Below, one piece after another: positions 44,109-54,265 of a DNA stretch of 64,000 nt; positions within the stretch are counted from its first letter, which is position 1; each line of letters starts with the position of its first letter. Source of the DNA: Myxococcus stipitatus DSM 14675 (lineage in GTDB: Bacteria > Myxococcota > Myxococcia > Myxococcales > Myxococcaceae); contig NC_020126.1 in NCBI RefSeq assembly GCF_000331735.1, positions 2,170,001-2,234,000 of the forward strand, written 5' to 3'. The notes beneath the pieces were generated by a model that was given only the letters and a program-made list of their open reading frames with translations, was not told the DNA's origin and did no database searches. Position numbers and translations under genes: made by a program.

Positions 44109-45977
44109 TCAGGGCTGGAAGGCGTTCTTCACCGCATCCAGCGGGGGATTGGCTCCCGAGACAGGGTCTGTACAACCTTGGTTGAGCGACCAGATGATGG
44201 TGCCCCCGAAGCCGTTGGCGCGGGCGTAGGCGCCCTTGGCGGCAATGGCTTGCGGCGAGTCATACGATATCCACCGCACCGTGCCGTCCACCACCGGCGA
44301 GGCGAACGTGACGTAGCTCGACTGGGCGGCGGCGTCCCAGTGATAGACGCCGGTCGCCGACAGGCTCATGATCCGGGCGTAGGTGAAATCATTGTCGCTG
44401 CCCACATAGTCAGACCAATCCGTATAGGGTTGGTAGGGGCCTGTGATGTGTCGCCAGGCCATGCCATAGAATGGCAGGCCCATGCCCAGTTTGGCTTTGG
44501 GGATGCCGGCGCCGACCCAGGCATTGAGGCTGGAGGCCACCGAGGTGGGGCGATTGCCCGCCTCCCCCGTGAGCGCGGAGGAGTACCAGGACGTCCAGCC
44601 GCCCCAGGGCCCCGTCATCTCGTAGGACATGACGTTCATCTGGTCCAGGTACGGCACCAGCTGCGCGAACCACGGGTCGGCCTCCTCGGGGAAGTTGGTG
44701 TTGACCCAGCCGATGGGCATGGTGAGGAGCATGTCCGGGCGGGCCGCGCGCAGCTGCTGCACCAGGGCGAGCAGGTTCGGCTTGTCCGCCACCTCCACCG
44801 GCTCCCAGTCGATGTCCAGACCGTCGTAACCGAAGCTGTCCAGGGCGGCCAGGAGGTTCTGGACGAAGCGGGCCCGGTTGGCATTGGAGGCGGCGCCCAC
44901 CCATCCGTCATGCTCTCCGGCCCCGCCCACCATGATGAGGGCCTTGCGTCCGGCGGCGTGGGCCCGGGTCGCCAGGCGGCGGGCGATGGCCGGGCCATTG
45001 TCATTATCGAACTGTGTACTCAGCGTCCCGTCGGGCCTGGGGGTGGCCCGGCCGACCATGATGTGCGTCAAGGCACTGAAATCCACCTTGTCGGGCGGGT
45101 AGAGGTCCGAGTTCCAACCCGTGTAATAACCAGACACCCACAGCCCTTTTCCGGGGGCGCTGGTGACAGTGATGGTGGCGATGGCGGACTGGGTGGGGTC
45201 CGCATGGCTGACTGCCTTCACTTGATACGTGCCCGGTGTTCCAGGCGCGGTGTAGACGCCCGTGGAGGTGATGACACCGCCCGCGTTTCCTTGCGGCACC
45301 GCCCAGCTCACCGCCGTGTTGGGGGTGCCCGTCACCGTCGCGGTGAACGCCTGCGTGCCGCCGGGAGGAAGCGTGACGGACGGCGGGGTGATGCTCACCT
45401 TCACGACCGGCGGGACACTCAATCCATCGGTGCGCAGGTCGTCGAAGTAGAGCGTGGGCAGCGACAGGCCCCGGGTCTCCTGGAGCAGCAGGCCCTTGAT
45501 GCGCGCACCCGCGGGCGCCAGCGCGTAGAAGGGCACGGCGCACGCCACCCACGCGTTGGCGCGGATGCGCCCTCCCTCACAGCGGGGCCCGAGGGGAACA
45601 CCCGGCGTCAGCACGTTGTCCGCGAAGGCGCGCACCTGCACCACCGCGCCGTCGCCGGCCAGGCCTCCGTGGACGCGCAGGGTGAAGGTCGCGCCCGGCT
45701 CCGCCACGCGCGGGTCCGTGCTGAAGTAGAGCGCCGAGTACGACGTCAGCGTCGCCGCGATGGAGTAGGTCCCCTGCGCCACCGGCGAGGTGTTGACCAG
45801 CGAGTGGGGAGCCCAGGAGGTGTCCTTCCAAGGCGACACCATCGCGTCGCGGTAAATCCAATGGGTGACCCAGGAGCTGGGAGCAGGCGAGGAGGGGAGC
45901 GCTGGCTCCTCCGCGTGGGCTCGCGGGGCTGATAGCAAGGTCATCCCCAAGGCCAACCAGACCATCCACCGAATCAT
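44109..45977 (-). CDS. Secreted GH18 chitinase
   Basis: 622 residues. Signal peptide (LLSAPRAHAEEP). Residues 30-190 form a carbohydrate-binding-like beta domain, then an Ig-like (Big2) domain at about 190-275 (VTLPPGGTQAFTATVTGTPN), and the GH18 barrel from 280. Catalytic signature DGLDIDWE complete (D385, D388, D390, E392). Also ALIMVGGAGE (the SxGG strand), MSYEMTGPWGG and a C-terminal GGTIIWSLNQGC. Active chitinase is very likely; it would break down chitin or peptidoglycan-like polymers outside the cell. Confidence 0.95.
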   Translation of the reverse strand: MIRWMVWLALGMTLLSAPRAHAEEPALPSSPAPSSWVTHWIYRDAMVSPWKDTSWAPHSLVNTSPVAQGTYSIAATLTSYSALYFSTDPRVAEPGATFTLRVHGGLAGDGAVVQVRAFADNVLTPGVPLGPRCEGGRIRANAWVACAVPFYALAPAGARIKGLLLQETRGLSLPTLYFDDLRTDGLSVPPVVKVSITPPSVTLPPGGTQAFTATVTGTPNTAVSWAVPQGNAGGVITSTGVYTAPGTPGTYQVKAVSHADPTQSAIATITVTSAPGKGLWVSGYYTGWNSDLYPPDKVDFSALTHIMVGRATPRPDGTLSTQFDNDNGPAIARRLATRAHAAGRKALIMVGGAGEHDGWVGAASNANRARFVQNLLAALDSFGYDGLDIDWEPVEVADKPNLLALVQQLRAARPDMLLTMPIGWVNTNFPEEADPWFAQLVPYLDQMNVMSYEMTGPWGGWTSWYSSALTGEAGNRPTSVASSLNAWVGAGIPKAKLGMGLPFYGMAWRHITGPYQPYTDWSDYVGSDNDFTYARIMSLSATGVYHWDAAAQSSYVTFASPVVDGTVRWISYDSPQAIAAKGAYARANGFGGTIIWSLNQGCTDPVSGANPPLDAVKNAFQP

Positions 45978-46272: not shown

Positions 46273-46665
46273 TCAGGGCACGTAGGCGATACAGTCGATT
46301 TCGACGAGCAGCCCGGTCTGCGGGAGCGCGGCCACCTGCACGGTGGTTCGCGCGGGGCGGTGGCCGGCGAACAGGCGCTCGTAGACGGCGTTCATCCGGG
46401 GGAAGTCCGCCATGTCGGTCACGAAGACGCCGCAGCGCAGGACGTGCTGGAGGCTGGAGCCTCCGGCCACGAGGATGCGCTCCAGGTTGCGCAGCACCTG
46501 CTCCGTCTGTGCCTCGATTCCCTCGGCCTGCTTGCCGGTGGCCGGGTCCGTGGCGGCCTGGCCGGAGACGAAGAGCAGCGAGTCCAGCTTCATGCCGGGA
46601 GAGTAGGGGCCCACGGGCTTGGGCAGGCCCTGGGCGGTGACGGGCTGATGGCGGGAGGTGGTCAT
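46273..46665 (-). CDS. ridA: RidA-family deaminase
   Basis: 130 residues, cytosolic, trimeric in the family. From the ATG at 46665: LPKPVGPYSPGMKLDSLLFV, ATGKQAEGIEAQTEQVLRNL, the conserved Arg in PARTTVQVAALPQ and the Glu in VEIDCIAYV. RidA hydrolyses reactive enamine/imine intermediates released by PLP enzymes such as threonine dehydratase. The catalytic Arg is present. It is divergent from the giant Kelch-OmpA gene. Confidence 0.93.
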   Translation of the reverse strand: MTTSRHQPVTAQGLPKPVGPYSPGMKLDSLLFVSGQAATDPATGKQAEGIEAQTEQVLRNLERILVAGGSSLQHVLRCGVFVTDMADFPRMNAVYERLFAGHRPARTTVQVAALPQTGLLVEIDCIAYVP

Positions 46666-46925
46666 GGGAGCGCGACGATGGCGCGGTTCTCCGCCCACGG
46701 CATCTTTCGCGTCGTGGGACGTGCCCCGCATGTGGGCCTCTGCGGGTTCGCCCGCCACTTCTCCACACGAGACAATCTCGTGGGGGGGGCTTCTGGTGGG
46801 TGCGTCAAGAGGGACCTTGCGTCGGGCCGCGTGATACAGGCGAGCAAGGCCTGTGAGGGCGCTGCGCGGAGGGCACGTCACCTGTGTCGACCCCGCCGGT
46901 GTCCACGGGCCGGGGAGGGTGTCAG

Positions 46926-49900
46926 ATGGCGTCGAGTCGCGTCTCGCGAAGCCTTGTCGTGCTGCTCTGCTGTGCCTGGACTTTCGCGTGCGAGCAGAAG
47001 CAGGAGTTGCCAGCCTCGTCGGAGGCCGTGGCCCTGGCCCGGGCCTACTTCCCGGAGCTCGCCTCGCGGCGGGGGACCTCGAAGGTCTTCTCCGCGTCGG
47101 AGGTTCCCCTCACCCCCCAGGATGACCGCGCGCTCACGTCGCGGCTGGTGGGCGCGGGGGCGCTGGAGCTGACCACGCGCGGGATGACCTTCCGTGTCGA
47201 GCAGACACTGGGGGCGGATGATTCCGCCGTGCTGAGCCGGGAGGAGGCCGTGGCCTTCTCGGGGGCGCGGCACTTCTGGTTCCCGGTGGGGGACTTCGCG
47301 AGCCTGAGCCAGGGCTGGCGCGGCTCGCGCATCGAAGAGGCGTGGGTGGTGGATGGCTCCGAGCCCCTCCACCGCGCGGAGTACCACGTCACGCTGCCGC
47401 CCTGGGTGTCGCGGCTGCACGACGCGGGCGAGTACGTGGAGTTCCTCGACACCGAGGGCCAGCCCGTCCTCCGGTTCCATCCGTCCGAGGTCCGCGACGC
47501 GAAGGGACAGTCGCGGCGCGGGCGCGTGCTCCTGTCGGGCGTGAGCAGGTCCTCGCGCGCGAACGTATTCGACGCGAGCGGGCCTCGGGTGAGCCTGGTC
47601 ACCGAGGTCTCCTTGGAGGGGCTCGCGGCGCCCATGGTGGTGGACCCGGGCTGGTCGTCGACCGCGAGCATGGCGACGGCGCGGTCCCAGCACGCCGCGC
47701 TGCTTCAGGCGGATGGCTCCGTCCTGGTGGCGGGAGGCGTGAACAACCTGGGCTTCGTCACCACCGCGGAGCGCTTCGACGTCGAGCGCGGCACGTGGGC
47801 CTCCGCGGGAAGCCCGGGCATCCAGGGCAACATCACGATGGGGGTGAGGTTGCCCTCGGGCAGGTCGCTCTTCCTCATGGATGGGAGCTTGACGGGCGTG
47901 CTCCACGACGCCGCGACGAACACCTGGTCCGCCACGGGCCCGGCGTCCGCCTCGCGCTCGGTGGGCACCGCCACGCTGCTGGCCTCTGGAGAGGTCCTCG
48001 TCGCGGGCGGCTCCAACCTCGCCACGTCGGAAATCTATGACCCCGTGGCCAACAGCTTCACGGCCGCTGGCAACCTGTCGGTGGTGCATCGCGGCCACGT
48101 CTCCGTGTTGTTGCGGGATGGGCGGGTGTTGCTGGTGAGCGGGACGAACGGCTCGTCCACGGAGCTCCCGCAGGTGGAGCTCTTCGACCCCGCCGCTCGG
48201 ACCTGGACCCAGGTGGCGCCGCTTCTCGTCCCCAGGCACTACGCGACGGGGACGCTGCTCCCGGATGGCCGTGTGTTGCTGGCGGGTGGGTATACGGGCT
48301 CGAACGCCGTCTCCACCCACGCGGAGATCTATGACCCCGCGGCCAACACCTGGACGGCGACGGGGGCGCTCAACCACCGACGCAACGGCCACACGGCCAC
48401 GCTGCTCCCCAGCGGCAAGGTGCTGGTGTCGGGGGGCGTGGATGAGGGGCGCAATCCGCAGCCCATCTCGGAGCTGTACGACCCCGCGACGGGGACGTGG
48501 AGCCCGGCGGGGACGATGGCCGTGGGGCGCGAGAACTCGACCGCGACGTTGCTGACCACCGGCCAGGTCCTGGTGACGGGGGGCCACAGCAGCCCGGGAG
48601 GGACGACCTTCTACGCCGGCGTGGATGTCTACGAGGCCTCCAGCGACCGCTGGTCGCCGGCGGGAAACCTGTCGCGGGTGCGGGGGTATGCGGCCTCCGT
48701 GTTGTTGCCCTCGGGCGATGTGCTGCTCGTGGGGGGCTCGGACGCGGCAGGCGCGGTCGCGACGGTGGAGCGGTACTCGCGCGCGAGCAATGCCTGGGCG
48801 CCCTCGGCCTCGCTGGCCACGGCGCGTGCACGGCCCACCGCGAGCCTGTTGCCCTCGGGCCGCGTGCTGGCCGCTGGTGGTGAGGGGGGCGGGGCGCCGC
48901 TGGCGTCGGTGGAGGAGTACGACGCGACCGCGAATGCGTGGAGCACGGTGGGGGCGATGACCGCCGCGCGTGTCGGACACACCGCGACGGTGCTCGGCTC
49001 GGGCCGGGTGTTCGTGGTGGGGGGCTCCGGAACGAATGTGGCGGAGGTCTATGACCCGGCGGCGCGGACCTGGAGCGCCGTCGCGGCGGCGCCCACGGTG
49101 CGTCTGGAGCACGCGGCGGTGTTGCTGAATGACGGTCGTATCCTGGTGGCGGGTGGACGGAACCCCGGGGGCCTGTTGGCGTCGGCGGAGCTGTATGACC
49201 CGGTCGCCAACACCTGGGCGCCCGCGGCGTCGCTCGCGCAGGGGCGGGCCACGTTCACGATGACGTTGTTGCCGTCGGGACGGGTGCTGGCGACGGCGGG
49301 CATGTCGGGTGCGGGAGAGCTGGCCTCGGCGGAGCTGTATGACCCGGTCTCCAACACCTGGACGGCGGCGGGCAATCTCGCCACCGCGCGCGTGTTCCAC
49401 TCCGCCGTGTTGCTGCCCTCGGGGCGCGTGCTCGTCGCGGGCGGTGAGGGCTCTCCGGGCGTGTCCCTCGCGTCGGCCGAGCTGTATGACACCACGACGC
49501 GCACGTGGAAGGTCGTGACGGCGCTCGCGGCGGCGCGGGCTCGCTTCGCGCTGGACGTCCTTCCCTCGGGCGAGGTGCTCGCGGCGGGAGGCGAGGGCTC
49601 TGGAGGGGCGTGGCTGGCGAGCGCGGAGCTGTTCGAGGACACGGGCTCACCGCCCGCCACGCGGCCGGTGGTGACGGGGCCCGATACGGCGTCCCAGGGT
49701 TGCCCGGTGCGCATCACGGGGACGCAGTTCCGAGGGGCCTCGGGAGGCAGCTCGGGAGACTACCGGGACTCGGCCGCGAACCTTCCGGTGGTGAGGGTGC
49801 GGACGGTGGAAGGGGACCGGCTCTGGGCGCTGCCGGGCACGGAGATGACCGCCACGGGCGTGACGGTGACGATTCCCGCGACCATGCCGGTGGGGACCCA

Positions 49901-52547
49901 GGTGGTCTCTGTCTTTGCGAACGCGGTGAGCGGTGGCCGGGTGTTGACGGTCATCGCGAACACCGCGCCGGTGGCGAGGGACTTGTCCGTCTCCACCGGG
50001 TTCGGCGCGCCGGTGAACATCACGTTGGAGGCGACGGACGCGGAGGCGGGAGCACCGCTCGGCTACGTCATCGTCACGCCTCCGACGCACGGCACCTTGA
50101 GCGGCACGCCGCCCGCCGTCACGTACACGCCGAACGCGGGCTACTCGGGGCCGGACAGCTTCACGTATCGCGCTCGGGACTGCGGTCTGGACAGCAATGT
50201 CTCCACGGTGAGCATCAACGTGGCCGCGACGAACCCGCCGACCATCACCTGCCCGGCGGACCTGCAGGTCGAGGCGACGGGGGCCTCGGGCGCGACGGTG
50301 ACGTACCCGCCCGCGACGGCCACGGATGACACCACGGCGAATCCGACGGTGACGTACTCGCATCCCTCGGGCAGCACGTTGCCGTTGGGGGAGACGGTCA
50401 TCACGGCGACGGCGGAGGACGCGGATGGAGCGCAGGCGTCCTGTACGTTCCGGGTGACGGTGCGGGACACGACGCCTCCGACGCTGGTGTGCCCGGAGAA
50501 CGTGCGGGTGGTGGGAGATGATGGCGGTGGGGCGCTCGTGACGTACACGGTGCCTGCGTCGGTGGATGGGATTTCCGGCCCCGCGACGGTGACGGCGACG
50601 CCGGCCTCGGGGACGCGCTTCCCATCGGGACGGACGCGGGTCGTCGTCACCGCGACGGATGCGGCCGGGAACTCCGCGAGCTGTGAGTTCGAGGTGCTGG
50701 TGCAGGCGCGGGTGGTGTCGATTGCCGGCGGTGGTTGTCAGTCCGCGGGGGGCGGTGGGCTGGGCTGGGGCGCCGCGTGGGTGCTCGCTGCGTGGGCGAG
50801 CCGTCGGCGGGGCAAGGAGCGGCGTCCTGTCCGGAGTCGTGTGCGGATGGGGGCGCTCGCGGTGGCCTTGGTGTCGACGAGCGCGGTGGGGCAGACGGTG
50901 TCGAGCCCGCTGGTGGCGTTCGATGCGGAGCGCTTGCGGCTGAGTGCCTCGGCGACGGACTCGTTGATGGTGGATACGGGGCGCGTGCTGACGGAAGGGG
51001 GCTATCGGCTCAGCCTGCTTGCGGGCTACGAGCGCGGCATCCTGATTCTGGAGGGCAATGATGGGAGCAGCCGTTCCATCCTGCACTACAGGACGTCGGC
51101 GTGGCTGCAGGGGGCCTGGTCACCGGTGGACCGGTTGGAGGTGTCCGCGCGGTTGCCGGTCATCATCTCGCAGGGTGGGCATGGGGCGGGCTTGTACGAG
51201 GGCGTCTCGGAGCCTTCGTCCTCGGGGTTGGGGACGCCGGAGGTGGGGGCTCGCTACGCGTTGATGCGGCGGGAGGATGGGGCGCCGCTGTCGTTGGCGG
51301 TGGGGCTGGATGTGGGGTTGCCGGGAGGACGGGCGAGTGCGTTCGGGCGGCAGGAGCACTGGGCGGGGATGCAGTTCTCGCCGAGGGTCTCGTTGGGACG
51401 TGAGGTGGGGATGTTCGCGTTGGGCGCGAGCGTGGGGGCGCGGGTGAGGTCGAAGGAGGTGGAGCCCGGGCGAGACGTGGGGACGGAGCTGGAGCAGTCG
51501 GTGGTGGTGGCGACGCGCGGGAAGGGGCTGCGGGGTGAGCTGGCGTTGCAGGTGGCGGAGTCGCTGGTGCATCCGGATGTGGCGGTGGAGTTGTTGGGAG
51601 GTGTGCGGCTGCCCATTGGAAGTGGCTTCGAGGTGAATGCGCTCGCGGGGCATGGCTTCACGGACATCCCGGGGACGCCGTCGTGGCGCGTGGGGGCGGG
51701 CATCGCCTGGGCGCACGAGCCCGAGCAGAAGCCCGACTCGGACAGCGATGGAGACTCGGTGCCCGACAAGAAGGACCGGTGTCCGCGCGAGGCGGGTGTG
51801 CCGGAGAACGATGGCTGCCCGGACCGGGACTCGGATGGAGATGGGGTCGTGGACCGTCTGGACCGTTGCCCGGATGAAGCAGGGATCGCGGAGTCGCAGG
51901 GCTGCCCGGAGCCGGATGAGGATGGCGACGGAGTGCCGGACGCGAAGGACAAGTGCCCGAAGGAGAAGGGCACGGCGGAGAACCAAGGCTGCCCGGCGGT
52001 GAAGGACACGGACGGCGATGGCGTTCCGGATGATGAGGACAAGTGCCCGAGCGAGAAGGGCACGGCGGAGAACCAGGGCTGCCCGGCGGTGAAGGACACG
52101 GACGGCGATGGTGTTCCGGATGGTGAGGACAAGTGCCCGAGCGAGAAGGGCACGGCGGAGAACCAGGGCTGCCCCGCGCCGGTGAAGAAGCCGGTGCAGG
52201 AGGAGAAGCTCTCGTTGTCGGGTCGTCGAGTCACGTTCCCGGTGGGCCTCGCGGTCATCGAGGGCGAGGGTGCGCGCGTGTTGGATGAGGTCGTGGAGAT
52301 GTTGAAGTCACGGCCGGACGTCGCGATTCGAGTCGAGGGCCACACGGACAACACGGGGCCCGAGACGCTCAACCAGGAGCTGAGTCAGTCTCGTGCGGAG
52401 GCGGTGCGGTCCTACCTCATCCAGCGAGGCATCAACGGCTCGCGCCTCGAGGCCCGAGGCTACGGACCGTCGCGTCCCGTGGCGTCGAACGACACGCCGG
52501 AAGGTCGAAGCGCGAACCGGCGCGTGGACTTCGTCATCAAGAACTGA
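46926..52547 (+). CDS. Kelch-HYR-MYXO-CTERM protein fused to an OmpA-family protein
   Basis: 1873 residues from the ATG at 46926 (GGGAGGG upstream; the ATG at 46884 has no site). Lipoprotein-like N-terminus (AWTFACEQ). Then about 14 Kelch-type units (VLLPSGRVLVAGG, SAELYDPVANTW), an Ig/cadherin-like domain, two HYR domains (PPTITCPADLQVEATG) and, at residues 1268-1298, a full MYXO-CTERM (GGGCQSAG, helix, RRRGK). The frame does not stop: it continues with an internal signal-like segment (MGALAVALVSTSAVGQ from residue 1308), a barrel region, five TSP3 calcium repeats and an OmpA peptidoglycan-binding domain ending HTDNTGPETLNQEL and RRVDFVIKN. This joins two proteins that normally end apart. 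Either it is a true fusion or a stop codon was lost. Confidence 0.85.
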   Translation: MASSRVSRSLVVLLCCAWTFACEQKQELPASSEAVALARAYFPELASRRGTSKVFSASEVPLTPQDDRALTSRLVGAGALELTTRGMTFRVEQTLGADDSAVLSREEAVAFSGARHFWFPVGDFASLSQGWRGSRIEEAWVVDGSEPLHRAEYHVTLPPWVSRLHDAGEYVEFLDTEGQPVLRFHPSEVRDAKGQSRRGRVLLSGVSRSSRANVFDASGPRVSLVTEVSLEGLAAPMVVDPGWSSTASMATARSQHAALLQADGSVLVAGGVNNLGFVTTAERFDVERGTWASAGSPGIQGNITMGVRLPSGRSLFLMDGSLTGVLHDAATNTWSATGPASASRSVGTATLLASGEVLVAGGSNLATSEIYDPVANSFTAAGNLSVVHRGHVSVLLRDGRVLLVSGTNGSSTELPQVELFDPAARTWTQVAPLLVPRHYATGTLLPDGRVLLAGGYTGSNAVSTHAEIYDPAANTWTATGALNHRRNGHTATLLPSGKVLVSGGVDEGRNPQPISELYDPATGTWSPAGTMAVGRENSTATLLTTGQVLVTGGHSSPGGTTFYAGVDVYEASSDRWSPAGNLSRVRGYAASVLLPSGDVLLVGGSDAAGAVATVERYSRASNAWAPSASLATARARPTASLLPSGRVLAAGGEGGGAPLASVEEYDATANAWSTVGAMTAARVGHTATVLGSGRVFVVGGSGTNVAEVYDPAARTWSAVAAAPTVRLEHAAVLLNDGRILVAGGRNPGGLLASAELYDPVANTWAPAASLAQGRATFTMTLLPSGRVLATAGMSGAGELASAELYDPVSNTWTAAGNLATARVFHSAVLLPSGRVLVAGGEGSPGVSLASAELYDTTTRTWKVVTALAAARARFALDVLPSGEVLAAGGEGSGGAWLASAELFEDTGSPPATRPVVTGPDTASQGCPVRITGTQFRGASGGSSGDYRDSAANLPVVRVRTVEGDRLWALPGTEMTATGVTVTIPATMPVGTQVVSVFANAVSGGRVLTVIANTAPVARDLSVSTGFGAPVNITLEATDAEAGAPLGYVIVTPPTHGTLSGTPPAVTYTPNAGYSGPDSFTYRARDCGLDSNVSTVSINVAATNPPTITCPADLQVEATGASGATVTYPPATATDDTTANPTVTYSHPSGSTLPLGETVITATAEDADGAQASCTFRVTVRDTTPPTLVCPENVRVVGDDGGGALVTYTVPASVDGISGPATVTATPASGTRFPSGRTRVVVTATDAAGNSASCEFEVLVQARVVSIAGGGCQSAGGGGLGWGAAWVLAAWASRRRGKERRPVRSRVRMGALAVALVSTSAVGQTVSSPLVAFDAERLRLSASATDSLMVDTGRVLTEGGYRLSLLAGYERGILILEGNDGSSRSILHYRTSAWLQGAWSPVDRLEVSARLPVIISQGGHGAGLYEGVSEPSSSGLGTPEVGARYALMRREDGAPLSLAVGLDVGLPGGRASAFGRQEHWAGMQFSPRVSLGREVGMFALGASVGARVRSKEVEPGRDVGTELEQSVVVATRGKGLRGELALQVAESLVHPDVAVELLGGVRLPIGSGFEVNALAGHGFTDIPGTPSWRVGAGIAWAHEPEQKPDSDSDGDSVPDKKDRCPREAGVPENDGCPDRDSDGDGVVDRLDRCPDEAGIAESQGCPEPDEDGDGVPDAKDKCPKEKGTAENQGCPAVKDTDGDGVPDDEDKCPSEKGTAENQGCPAVKDTDGDGVPDGEDKCPSEKGTAENQGCPAPVKKPVQEEKLSLSGRRVTFPVGLAVIEGEGARVLDEVVEMLKSRPDVAIRVEGHTDNTGPETLNQELSQSRAEAVRSYLIQRGINGSRLEARGYGPSRPVASNDTPEGRSANRRVDFVIKN
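51941..52180 (+). repeat. 90-base tandem repeat encoding TSP3 units
   Basis: Three near-identical 90-base units; the marker CACGGCGGAGAACCA occurs at 51971, 52061 and 52151. They encode DTDGDGVPDDEDKCPSEKG-type thrombospondin type 3 (calcium-binding) units. The near identity at the DNA level shows recent expansion, so copy number may differ between strains. Confidence 0.9.
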
Positions 52548-52560
52548 CGAAGCAAACCCA

Positions 52561-52591
52561 GAGCCGCGGGGCCCACGAGGCTCCGCGGCTC
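52561..52591. terminator. Bidirectional terminator hairpin
   Basis: A 13-base stem (52561-52573 with 52579-52591, core GAGCCGCGG/CCGCGGCTC, one G-U pair) with a five-base loop. It sits between the convergent stops of the OmpA fusion and the LysE gene; the T-rich flank lies on the minus side. Confidence 0.8.
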
Positions 52592-52634
52592 GGAACTGAG
52601 TGAAGAGGGGGGTTACTCCCGCTGCGCCGTTTGC

Positions 52635-53243
52635 CTACGCGAACGCCACATAGGCCGCGACGCCCATCATGCACGCGCCGAACGTCCATCCCTGGATGCG
52701 CAGGGCCTTCTCGGAGCGGAAGCGTCCCAGGATGAGCTTGCCCCCATAAATCCAGGGGAAGTGGCACACCACGCAGACGCCCAGGAACGCCACCGTGAGC
52801 ATCGCGGCCTGCGTCAGGGCCCCGCTCGCGGGATTGAGGAATTGGGAGAACATCACCAGGACCATCGAGTGGATCTTCGGGTTGAACGCCACGGCCAGCA
52901 GCCCCTCGACGAACCCCAGCTTCTCCACGGACGCGTCCTCTCCGCCCGCCGACCCTCGCGCGGAGCGGAAGAACCCCCACGCGAGATAGAGCAGGTACAC
53001 GACACTGCACACCCGCAGCACCTCGTGCAGCGCGGGAATCTCCTGCAGCACGCTCCCCAATCCCAATCCGTAGATGATGCAGAGCGCGACGTTCGCCACC
53101 TCGAACCCCAGCCAGAACGGCAGCGAGCCTCGGATGCCGAACCGCCCTCCCGCGGTGGCGAGCACCGTGTTGCCCGGCCCTGGGCTGAACACCATTGGGA
53201 CCGTGTACCCCAGGAACATCACCCAGACTTCAGCGGGAATCAT
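52635..53243 (-). CDS. LysE-family amino acid exporter
   Basis: 202 residues, about six membrane helices. The start has the LysE pattern: VMFLGYTVPMVFSPGPGNTVLATAGGRFG (split over two segments), followed by FWLGFEVANVALC, LLYLAWGFFRSARG, then GLLAVAFNPKIHSMVLVMF, a family signature after the third helix. LysE/RhtB proteins export amino acids or related molecules. The divergent LysR gene is the expected regulator. Substrate not predictable. Confidence 0.9.
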   Translation of the reverse strand: MIPAEVWVMFLGYTVPMVFSPGPGNTVLATAGGRFGIRGSLPFWLGFEVANVALCIIYGLGLGSVLQEIPALHEVLRVCSVVYLLYLAWGFFRSARGSAGGEDASVEKLGFVEGLLAVAFNPKIHSMVLVMFSQFLNPASGALTQAAMLTVAFLGVCVVCHFPWIYGGKLILGRFRSEKALRIQGWTFGACMMGVAAYVAFA

Positions 53244-53362
53244 GGCGAAGACCTCGTGCGCCAGCGTTCATCGCGGTGGGGCGCGGCCCATCAGAAACTC
53301 CATTTCGAGCCCAGGGCCCAGCGAGCTATCCTCGGCCGCTCGATAAAGGGAGCTCATCGAGC

Positions 53363-54265
53363 ATGCGTCGCATTCCACCGCTGGGCGCGCTTCGTGCGTT
53401 CGAGGCGGGAGCGAGACACCTGAGCTTCACTCGCGCCGCCACGGAGCTGCGAGTCACCCAGGCCGCCATCAGCCATCACGTCCGCCAGCTCGAGGACTGG
53501 CTCGGCGTCTCCCTGTTCGAGCGCCGAGGTCACGCCCTCACGCTGACCCGCAAGGGCCAGGAGTACCTGCGCGAGCTCACCCCCGTCTTCGAGCGCCTCT
53601 CCGAGGCCACCACCCGCCTCTCCGAAGCCGAGCAGGGCCCGCTGCGCCTCACCGTGCTCCCATCCTTCGCCTCCTGCTGGCTCCTCCCGCGCCTGGAGCG
53701 CTTCCGCGAGCTCCACCCCGACATCGAGCTCCACCTGACCAGCGCGGCCGAGCTGTGGGACTTCCTCGATGACCGCTTCGACATCGGCATCCGCTCGGGG
53801 CTGGGGCGGTGGACGGGGCTCAAGGCGGAGCAGGTCGCCACGGAGGGACTCAGCCCCGTGTGCAGCCCCGCGCTCGCGAAGAAGCTGCGCGTGCCCTCGG
53901 ACCTGGCGAAGGTCCGGCTCATCCACGACACGCCGAAGGATGCGTGGCGCCGGTGGCTGGATGTCGCGGGAGTGAAGGGCGTGGACGCGGACAAGGGCCT
54001 CACGTTCAACGACGCGGGGCTCGTGCTCCAGTCCGCGCGGCAGGGAGATGGTGTCGCGCTGGGGCGGATGCTGCTCGCCGCGGATGACCTGAAGGCCGGA
54101 CGCCTGGTCCAGCCCTTCCCGAAGGTGCTCCCCAACGACTTCGGCTACTGGCTCGTCCACCCTCGGCCCCTGTCGGGCCGCGAGGATGTGGTGCGGTTCA
54201 AGGACTGGCTGCTCGCCGAGGCCCGGGCTGGTGCCTCCGTGCATCGCGGTTTCGGTGGGATGTGA
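53363..54265 (+). CDS. LysR-family regulator (GcvA-like)
   Basis: 300 residues from the ATG at 53363. The HTH is LSFTRAATELRVTQAAISHH, followed by the linker helix; the effector-binding domain runs from about 90 (PLRLTVLPSFASCWLLPRLE) to 290 and includes IELHLTSAAELWDF and DDRFDIGIRSG. It most resembles GcvA-type regulators. Divergent from the LysE gene, which is its likely target. A weak hairpin GTTTC/GAAAC followed by five T covers the stop codon. Confidence 0.92.
   Translation: MRRIPPLGALRAFEAGARHLSFTRAATELRVTQAAISHHVRQLEDWLGVSLFERRGHALTLTRKGQEYLRELTPVFERLSEATTRLSEAEQGPLRLTVLPSFASCWLLPRLERFRELHPDIELHLTSAAELWDFLDDRFDIGIRSGLGRWTGLKAEQVATEGLSPVCSPALAKKLRVPSDLAKVRLIHDTPKDAWRRWLDVAGVKGVDADKGLTFNDAGLVLQSARQGDGVALGRMLLAADDLKAGRLVQPFPKVLPNDFGYWLVHPRPLSGREDVVRFKDWLLAEARAGASVHRGFGGM

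Follow-up and report, generated by a model that had tools for sequence, protein, structure and literature searches.

How does a MYXO-CTERM sorting signal, which is expected at the end of a protein, come to lie in the middle of one, and what becomes of the two halves? The question is raised by an open reading frame in the window, by which we mean the whole 64,000-nucleotide stretch of Myxococcus stipitatus DSM 14675 that was analyzed (NC_020126.1, positions 2,170,001 to 2,234,000). According to the list of open reading frames and the translation, the frame runs without interruption from ATG 46926 to the stop codon at 52545-52547 on the plus strand, encodes 1,873 amino acids, and is already open from GTG 46884. 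The protein begins with a signal peptide and continues through kelch and Ig/HYR regions to an internal MYXO-CTERM; a second signal peptide, a predicted TraB-like barrel, TSP3 repeats, and an OmpA domain follow (Table 1). Kelch, Big_9, HYR (in two stretches), TSP_3, and OmpA all score above the Pfam cut-offs. The preliminary description had placed an internal MYXO-CTERM, a signal-like segment, and a TSP3/OmpA protein in one frame; translation, Pfam, and orthologues confirm this, with the MYXO-CTERM profiles scoring below cut-off.

Table 1. Features of the fused gene (window coordinates)
Feature	Position	Strand	Basis
Fused gene, 1,873 aa	46926..52547	+	Frame and translation; fusion common to G019, G008, and G018
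N-terminal signal peptide, MASSRVSRSLVVLLCCAWTFAC	46926..46991	+	Translation, judged by eye
Kelch-repeat region, about residues 245-920	47658..49685	+	Pfam Kelch_1/2/3/4/6 above cut-off; approximate limits
Big_9 Ig-like domain, residues 1012-1098	49959..50219	+	Pfam
Two HYR domains, the better at residues 1181-1259	50220..50702	+	Pfam; start of the first HYR approximate
Internal MYXO-CTERM, GGGC and hydrophobic stretch, residues 1268-1292	50727..50801	+	Translation; profiles below cut-off; Cys in 50/50 orthologues
Codon of Cys1271 of the internal MYXO-CTERM	50736-50738	+	
Arg-rich loop, residues 1293-1307, predicted cytoplasmic	50802..50846	+	Net charge +8 over the 16 residues script-scored as loop
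Internal signal peptide, residues 1308-1322, predicted signal peptidase I cut AVG/Q	50847..50891	+	Hydropathy and pattern only
Predicted TraB-like outer-membrane beta-barrel, residues 1323-1597	50892..51716	+	Structure model, Foldseek, weak TraB profile match
TSP3 repeats and OmpA peptidoglycan-binding domain, residues 1598-1873, with stop	51717..52547	+	Pfam, model, Foldseek

Judged by eye, the N-terminal signal peptide is possibly of the lipoprotein type, with Cys22 in the motif TFAC (codon 46989-46991); the N-terminal half might therefore be lipidated at both ends. The neighbors, also assigned by eye, are a chitinase-type hydrolase (44109-45977) and a RidA-type protein (46273-46881) on the minus strand upstream, and a LysE-type exporter (52635-53243, minus strand) and a LysR-type regulator (53195-54265, plus strand) downstream; they give no hint of a link with the fused gene. 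A scan of positions 46700 to 52800 found no promoter or terminator, a result of little weight in a G+C-rich genome.

A search of 145 genomes of the order gave 51 that passed an E value of 1e-50, and 50 orthologues were analyzed, since the match in G071 (41% identity) was only at the level of a paralogue. Thirteen are fused. In the other 37 the halves are neighboring genes: a stop codon closes the first shortly after the Arg run, and the second encodes a signal peptide of its own; the counterpart of the internal signal peptide opens a separate gene in all 37 (one split pair, in G021, is cut on its N side by the edge of the fetched contig). Within the genus, 26 of 27 genomes have an orthologue (G015 has none), 6 of them fused and 20 split. 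A scan of the contigs of named genomes was dominated by OmpA domains of Bacteroidetes, with few true orthologues. It had been suggested that comparison of homologues might reveal a stop in all of them; a stop is present in 37 of the 50, but the other 13 have none.

The fused forms group as G000/G019/G008/G018 (G000 being the genome of the window), G004, G010, G070/G072/G074, G089, and G099/G100/G101. On a tree of the OmpA half, the fused or split label needs six changes, at least five of which are forced by well-supported branches; for the 26 members of the genus, trees of either half need three. Most simply, the six changes of state would be six independent fusions. An ancestral fusion followed by re-splittings is compatible with parsimony alone and is less simple, each re-splitting having to restore a stop, a spacer, and a start.

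The relatives also suggest how the joint formed. In split G022 the first gene ends in RRRSRHASH-stop, and a spacer and MDFTLRTQARSWALAALISSIAPNALA/Q follow (slash, predicted cut); in fused G010 the junction reads RRRSR-TRARSWALAALIASIAPNALA/Q, so that G010 retains both signals but none of the stop, spacer, and start that separate them in G022. Measured between the Cys and one constant position of the second half, G010 is 57 bases shorter than split G022, and the window is 56 bases shorter than split G003. The relatives thus point to fusion by deletions that removed stop, spacer, and start, rather than by one base change. The earlier proposal of two genes that lost a stop codon therefore fits as history, but the single base change envisaged for it does not fit junctions shortened to this extent. 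G100 and G101 differ in that an ATG persists ahead of the second signal peptide. In 10 of the 37 split pairs, stop and start overlap by 4 bases, as GTGA or ATGA; for one of the 10, that of G011, a downstream ATG is an equally likely start.

Is the internal segment a genuine MYXO-CTERM? It opens with GGGC (residues 1268 to 1271), is hydrophobic to about residue 1292, and passes through the Arg-rich loop, which combines the tail of the first signal with the n-region of the second, into the signal-like segment. The fused protein scores 13.3 bits with TIGR03901 (cut-off, 20; 14.4 bits in the genome search) and 11.7 bits with TIGR03382 (cut-off, 15.85), so the window protein does not qualify by profile; its first hydrophobic segment is the weakest among the 13 fused forms (mean hydropathy, 1.10). 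Nor is the segment C-terminal here. It does have the short motif with the invariant Cys, followed by a helix and an Arg-rich cluster, in a protein that starts with a signal peptide as judged by eye alone. Because the segment closes the first gene, just before the stop, in 37 of 37 split orthologues, and because the Cys is found in all 50, we regard the match as more than chance. Eight of the 37 split tails were scanned with the profiles; seven pass TIGR03382 and three pass TIGR03901.

The preliminary description had held that MYXO-CTERM normally ends a protein, and this is borne out in the host genome, where all 17 matches above the TIGR03901 cut-off reach a stop within 51 residues of the match start; the internal copy is thus exceptional. 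The genome search scored 150 of 278 candidates, and 5 of the 18 matches below the cut-off were read, including two fused genes; of the remaining three, two have normal ends, and one, without a stop in the stretch, resembles a chance frame. MYXO-CTERM sorting was tied to its protease, MrtX, only recently (PMC11980579, in the portion available). The same genome encodes this myxosortase, at 450 bits against a cut-off of 180.

Both processing signals outlast fusion. All 13 fused forms keep the Cys, the first hydrophobic stretch, a basic loop (6 to 24 residues; net charge, +3 to +9), a further hydrophobic stretch, and a predicted cut site of the form [AV]x[AG]/Q, the sites being called from hydropathy and pattern only; V stands at position -3 in three of the 13. 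The Cys is likewise kept in 37 of 37 split forms. Mean hydropathy of the first stretch is 1.78 in fused and 1.81 in split forms (P = 0.72), and that of the second is higher in fused forms, at 2.34 versus 1.96 (P = 0.009); these P values are rough, the sequences being related by descent. Arg and Lys residues after the first stretch average 5.5 in fused and 4.4 in split forms; some residues counted in the fused forms may belong to the second signal. We looked for erosion of the MYXO-CTERM following fusion and saw none over the 13 fused forms, though the window is the weakest of them. In the clade of four to which the window belongs, both halves are under purifying selection, with pN/pS at 0.42 for the kelch side, 0.20 for the MYXO-CTERM segment, 0.09 for the barrel, and 0.20 for TSP3/OmpA; the loop and second signal peptide, of 14 to 15 codons each, are fast evolving (0.61 for both). 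In G089 and G099 there is no ATG, GTG, or TTG (the only codons counted) between the Cys and the interior of the second signal peptide, so that, barring initiation at a rarer codon, the long chain would be the sole source of the barrel in these two.

The best NCBIfam match of the second half is TraB (NF033763), at 191 bits against a cut-off of 700. In a genome-wide TraB search the best stretch at this locus gave 139.4 bits, and a weak match of 53.6 bits covers positions 11 to 379 of the TraB model; a separate, true TraB in the same genome scores 1,016.8 bits. An AlphaFold model (m9f75ddcf3a55; mean pLDDT, 71.8; pTM, 0.44), calculated from an alignment of 33 sequences (the window and 32 relatives), shows a 12-strand barrel, TSP3 linkers, and an OmpA domain. 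Foldseek matched it to the OmpA-domain structures 5wtl, 5u1h, and 3td3, and the barrel to FapF and a COG4313 channel. The order of signal peptide, beta-barrel, TSP3, and OmpA is that of TraB, with the barrel modeled at moderate confidence. Given a profile score below cut-off, a true TraB elsewhere in the genome, and the modeled barrel/TSP3/OmpA arrangement, we call the second half TraB-like, not TraB.

A second fused gene of the same genome, between ftsZ and ftsA (G000:C1:8023153-8030784), encodes 2,543 amino acids, with the junction GCSTGGAGTFAPLALLLLAVPMMRRFRRATERSSRGLAAGIAGGLALGGMMVAQPAQA/Q. It is the counterpart of MXAN_5598, which the available portion of PMC11980579 places between ftsZ and ftsA. 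The same portion describes internal MYXO-CTERM motifs as rare, discusses MXAN_5598 as the one example, considers it a possible gene fusion of adhesin, MYXO-CTERM, barrel, and OmpA, likens it to TraA/TraB, and proposes that its N part is processed and anchored; for MXAN_5598 that portion mentions neither an internal signal peptide nor repeated fusion. A table of vesicle proteins also includes MXAN_5598, there classed as a protein with an OmpA domain (PMC4158809, in part). The window protein shares this architecture of adhesin region, internal MYXO-CTERM, barrel, and OmpA in one frame. It differs in having kelch repeats where the MXAN_5598 type has Ig-like repeats, and in its locus; over junction and barrel it is only 23% identical to L023, the MXAN_5598-type locus of its own genome.

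The MXAN_5598-type joint was sought in the 145 genomes, 26 of which gave no match; part of the rows were read, and synteny was checked in the window's genome. A stop-free match from before the Cys through the barrel is present in 27 of 27 genomes of the genus, and a junction-spanning match likewise in all 63 genomes that belong to genera g1, g3, and g5 to g9 (seven genera; counted by hand). These matches and the 13 fused orthologues answer the suggestion that the joined architecture be looked for in other myxobacteria. The best row per genome has a frame of 1,021 to 3,723 amino acids, the shortest being in G108 (1,021), G072 (1,579), and G021 (1,654). In other genera the joint is patchy, and many genomes have stand-alone barrels only or nothing. 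Fifteen further fused genes with other N halves, picked from other genera for variety and not at random, have open reading frames of 1,237 to 5,105 amino acids (L165 runs off its contig). In these 15 and L023, all 16 read, we found the Cys, a helix, basic residues, a second helix, and [ASV]xA/Q; the Cys is invariant in their alignment with the window. By eye, lipoprotein-like signal peptides also start the fused proteins of L158, L160, and L162. Giant fused frames of 4,948 to 5,220 amino acids with a junction-spanning match occur at L158 (G103) and in G104 to G107, G109, and G110; only that of G103 was read.

Also among the closest known systems is TraA/TraB, in which the two proteins occur at a ratio of 1:1 and TraB consists of signal peptide, barrel, TSP3, and OmpA (PMC12045341, available part). 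There too a MYXO-CTERM surface protein is followed by such a partner, and the traA and traB genes of M. xanthus overlap by 4 bases (PMC3325183, available part), as do 10 of the 37 split orthologues; the overlap is found in the window's genome as well (ATGA, L028:5854-5857). The differences are that TraA has PA14-like and Cys-rich parts where the window protein has kelch/HYR, and that the second half of the window protein, unlike true TraB, scores far below the TraB model cut-off. A fused TraA/TraB was sought in the 145 genomes: 62 had a TraB match at an E value of 1e-150, none in a frame longer than 715 amino acids, and a 1:1 complex thus does not force fusion. Despite their ATGA overlap, traA and traB show no fusion in those 62 genomes, unlike the kelch pair. 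Two further arrangements were observed in the window's own genome. At L021:1440-5755 (C1 3426439-3430754) a TraB-like OmpA gene and a MYXO-CTERM gene lie 17 bases apart, separate and in reverse order, and at L022:8055-11999 a TraB-like OmpA gene precedes a gene for a Cys-rich repeat protein that, by eye, may resemble the TraA repeat region.

In sortase and archaeosortase substrates, a C-terminal-type tag is said to act in midprotein (references 45 and 46 of PMC11980579, itself available in part). Like the window protein, such substrates have the sorting signal inside the chain. We know of none in which the tag precedes a further exported protein that has a signal peptide of its own. The cytochrome b/c1 polyprotein FbcH of Bradyrhizobium japonicum is a fused bacterial protein that is cleaved at a signal sequence inside the chain; it is a respiratory enzyme, without a sorting tag or an outer-membrane product. 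A literature search of partial coverage found nothing relevant on bacterial polyproteins with internal signal peptides.

The gene in the window is probably a fused two-gene operon whose product, a polyprotein joining a kelch/HYR MYXO-CTERM protein to a TraB-like partner, would be cut in two. The N-terminal signal peptide would start export, the MYXO-CTERM helix would halt it (running from outside to inside), the Arg-rich loop would stay in the cytoplasm, and the internal signal peptide would restart export (from inside to outside). Signal peptidase I would then cleave behind the AVG that ends at residue 1322, which would release the barrel/TSP3/OmpA protein to the outer membrane; the N part would remain as a MYXO-CTERM precursor of the ordinary kind except for its longer tail. 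MrtX would next cut beside Cys1271, which would be lipidated, and the type II system would carry the kelch protein to the cell surface. No new enzyme would be needed, because the signal peptidase I cut alone would yield a mature outer-membrane protein and an ordinary MYXO-CTERM precursor. The two partners would be made in equal amounts, as has been reported for TraA and TraB (1:1); from these signals and likenesses we infer both cuts, lipidation, complex formation, and a role in adhesion. The preliminary description had listed a polyprotein cut by the sorting protease among its options, and this is the best supported of them, the signals being kept in all 13 fused forms and MrtX encoded; the cuts themselves we predict from the sequence.

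Other fates of the chain have to be weighed against this double cut. One cut might be made without the other, so that the barrel is freed while an uncut helix holds the kelch half, or the reverse. The weak profile scores of the window's MYXO-CTERM speak for this, as does the account, in the available part of PMC11980579, that surface localization is not abolished without MrtX and that uncleaved protein is proposed to reach the surface. It is nevertheless unlikely in our judgment: MrtX is encoded, the Cys is kept in every fused and split form, and the scanned split tails include seven of eight that pass TIGR03382 and three that pass TIGR03901. We rate slightly lower the chance of a stable, uncut fusion, in which the kelch adhesin would be tied to a peptidoglycan-bound barrel. 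The open, conserved frame is consistent with such tethering, which is a common reason for fusing genes; on topological grounds, however, a barrel a few residues from an inner-membrane helix could hardly sit in the outer membrane, and retention of both cutting signals in all 13 fused forms argues against it.

We consider it improbable that two products arise because translation restarts internally, at GTG 50841 or ATG 50847, whether in addition to the long chain or in its place. The preliminary description had pointed to a restart at these codons; both are present in the window, together with a GGAG stretch, and the 4-base overlap in 10 of 37 split relatives suggests translational coupling. Against this, the first product would have no stop, G008 lacks a start at the corresponding position, and none lies between the Cys and the interior of the second signal peptide in G089 or G099. 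As a general mechanism, restart is ruled out by these two fused forms, which lack ATG, GTG, and TTG there; it could operate in the window itself. That a stop codon was missed through an error of sequencing or assembly, an idea favored by the stop in 37 of 50 orthologues, has next to no likelihood and was rejected: the fusion is common to three other genomes of the genus, G019, G008, and G018, which share the junction (96, 92, and 90% identity, respectively, over junction and barrel), and the window junction is 56 bases shorter than that of split G003.

The architecture itself is already in print, from the one protein MXAN_5598 (PMC11980579, available in part). Three things are new as far as we have searched: the member with kelch repeats, the recurrence of fusion, and the internal signal peptide that fused forms retain. 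In the literature covered, which was partial, no publication naming any of the three was found. Overlapping, separate, and fused relatives form a natural series, which points to several origins of the joint, and both cutting signals are present in the 13 fused relatives and in the 16 MXAN_5598-type genes read; this series, with its signals kept throughout, makes the idea of a polyprotein cut twice testable. It also suggests that TraB-like barrels commonly partner MYXO-CTERM proteins. On balance we lean toward a wider reading, in which an operon has been converted to a polyprotein repeatedly, about six times in this orthologue group, with the tag and signal peptide serving as a two-cut cassette for 1:1 delivery, and in which TraA/TraB-like pairs may be a general device for surface display, beyond outer membrane exchange.
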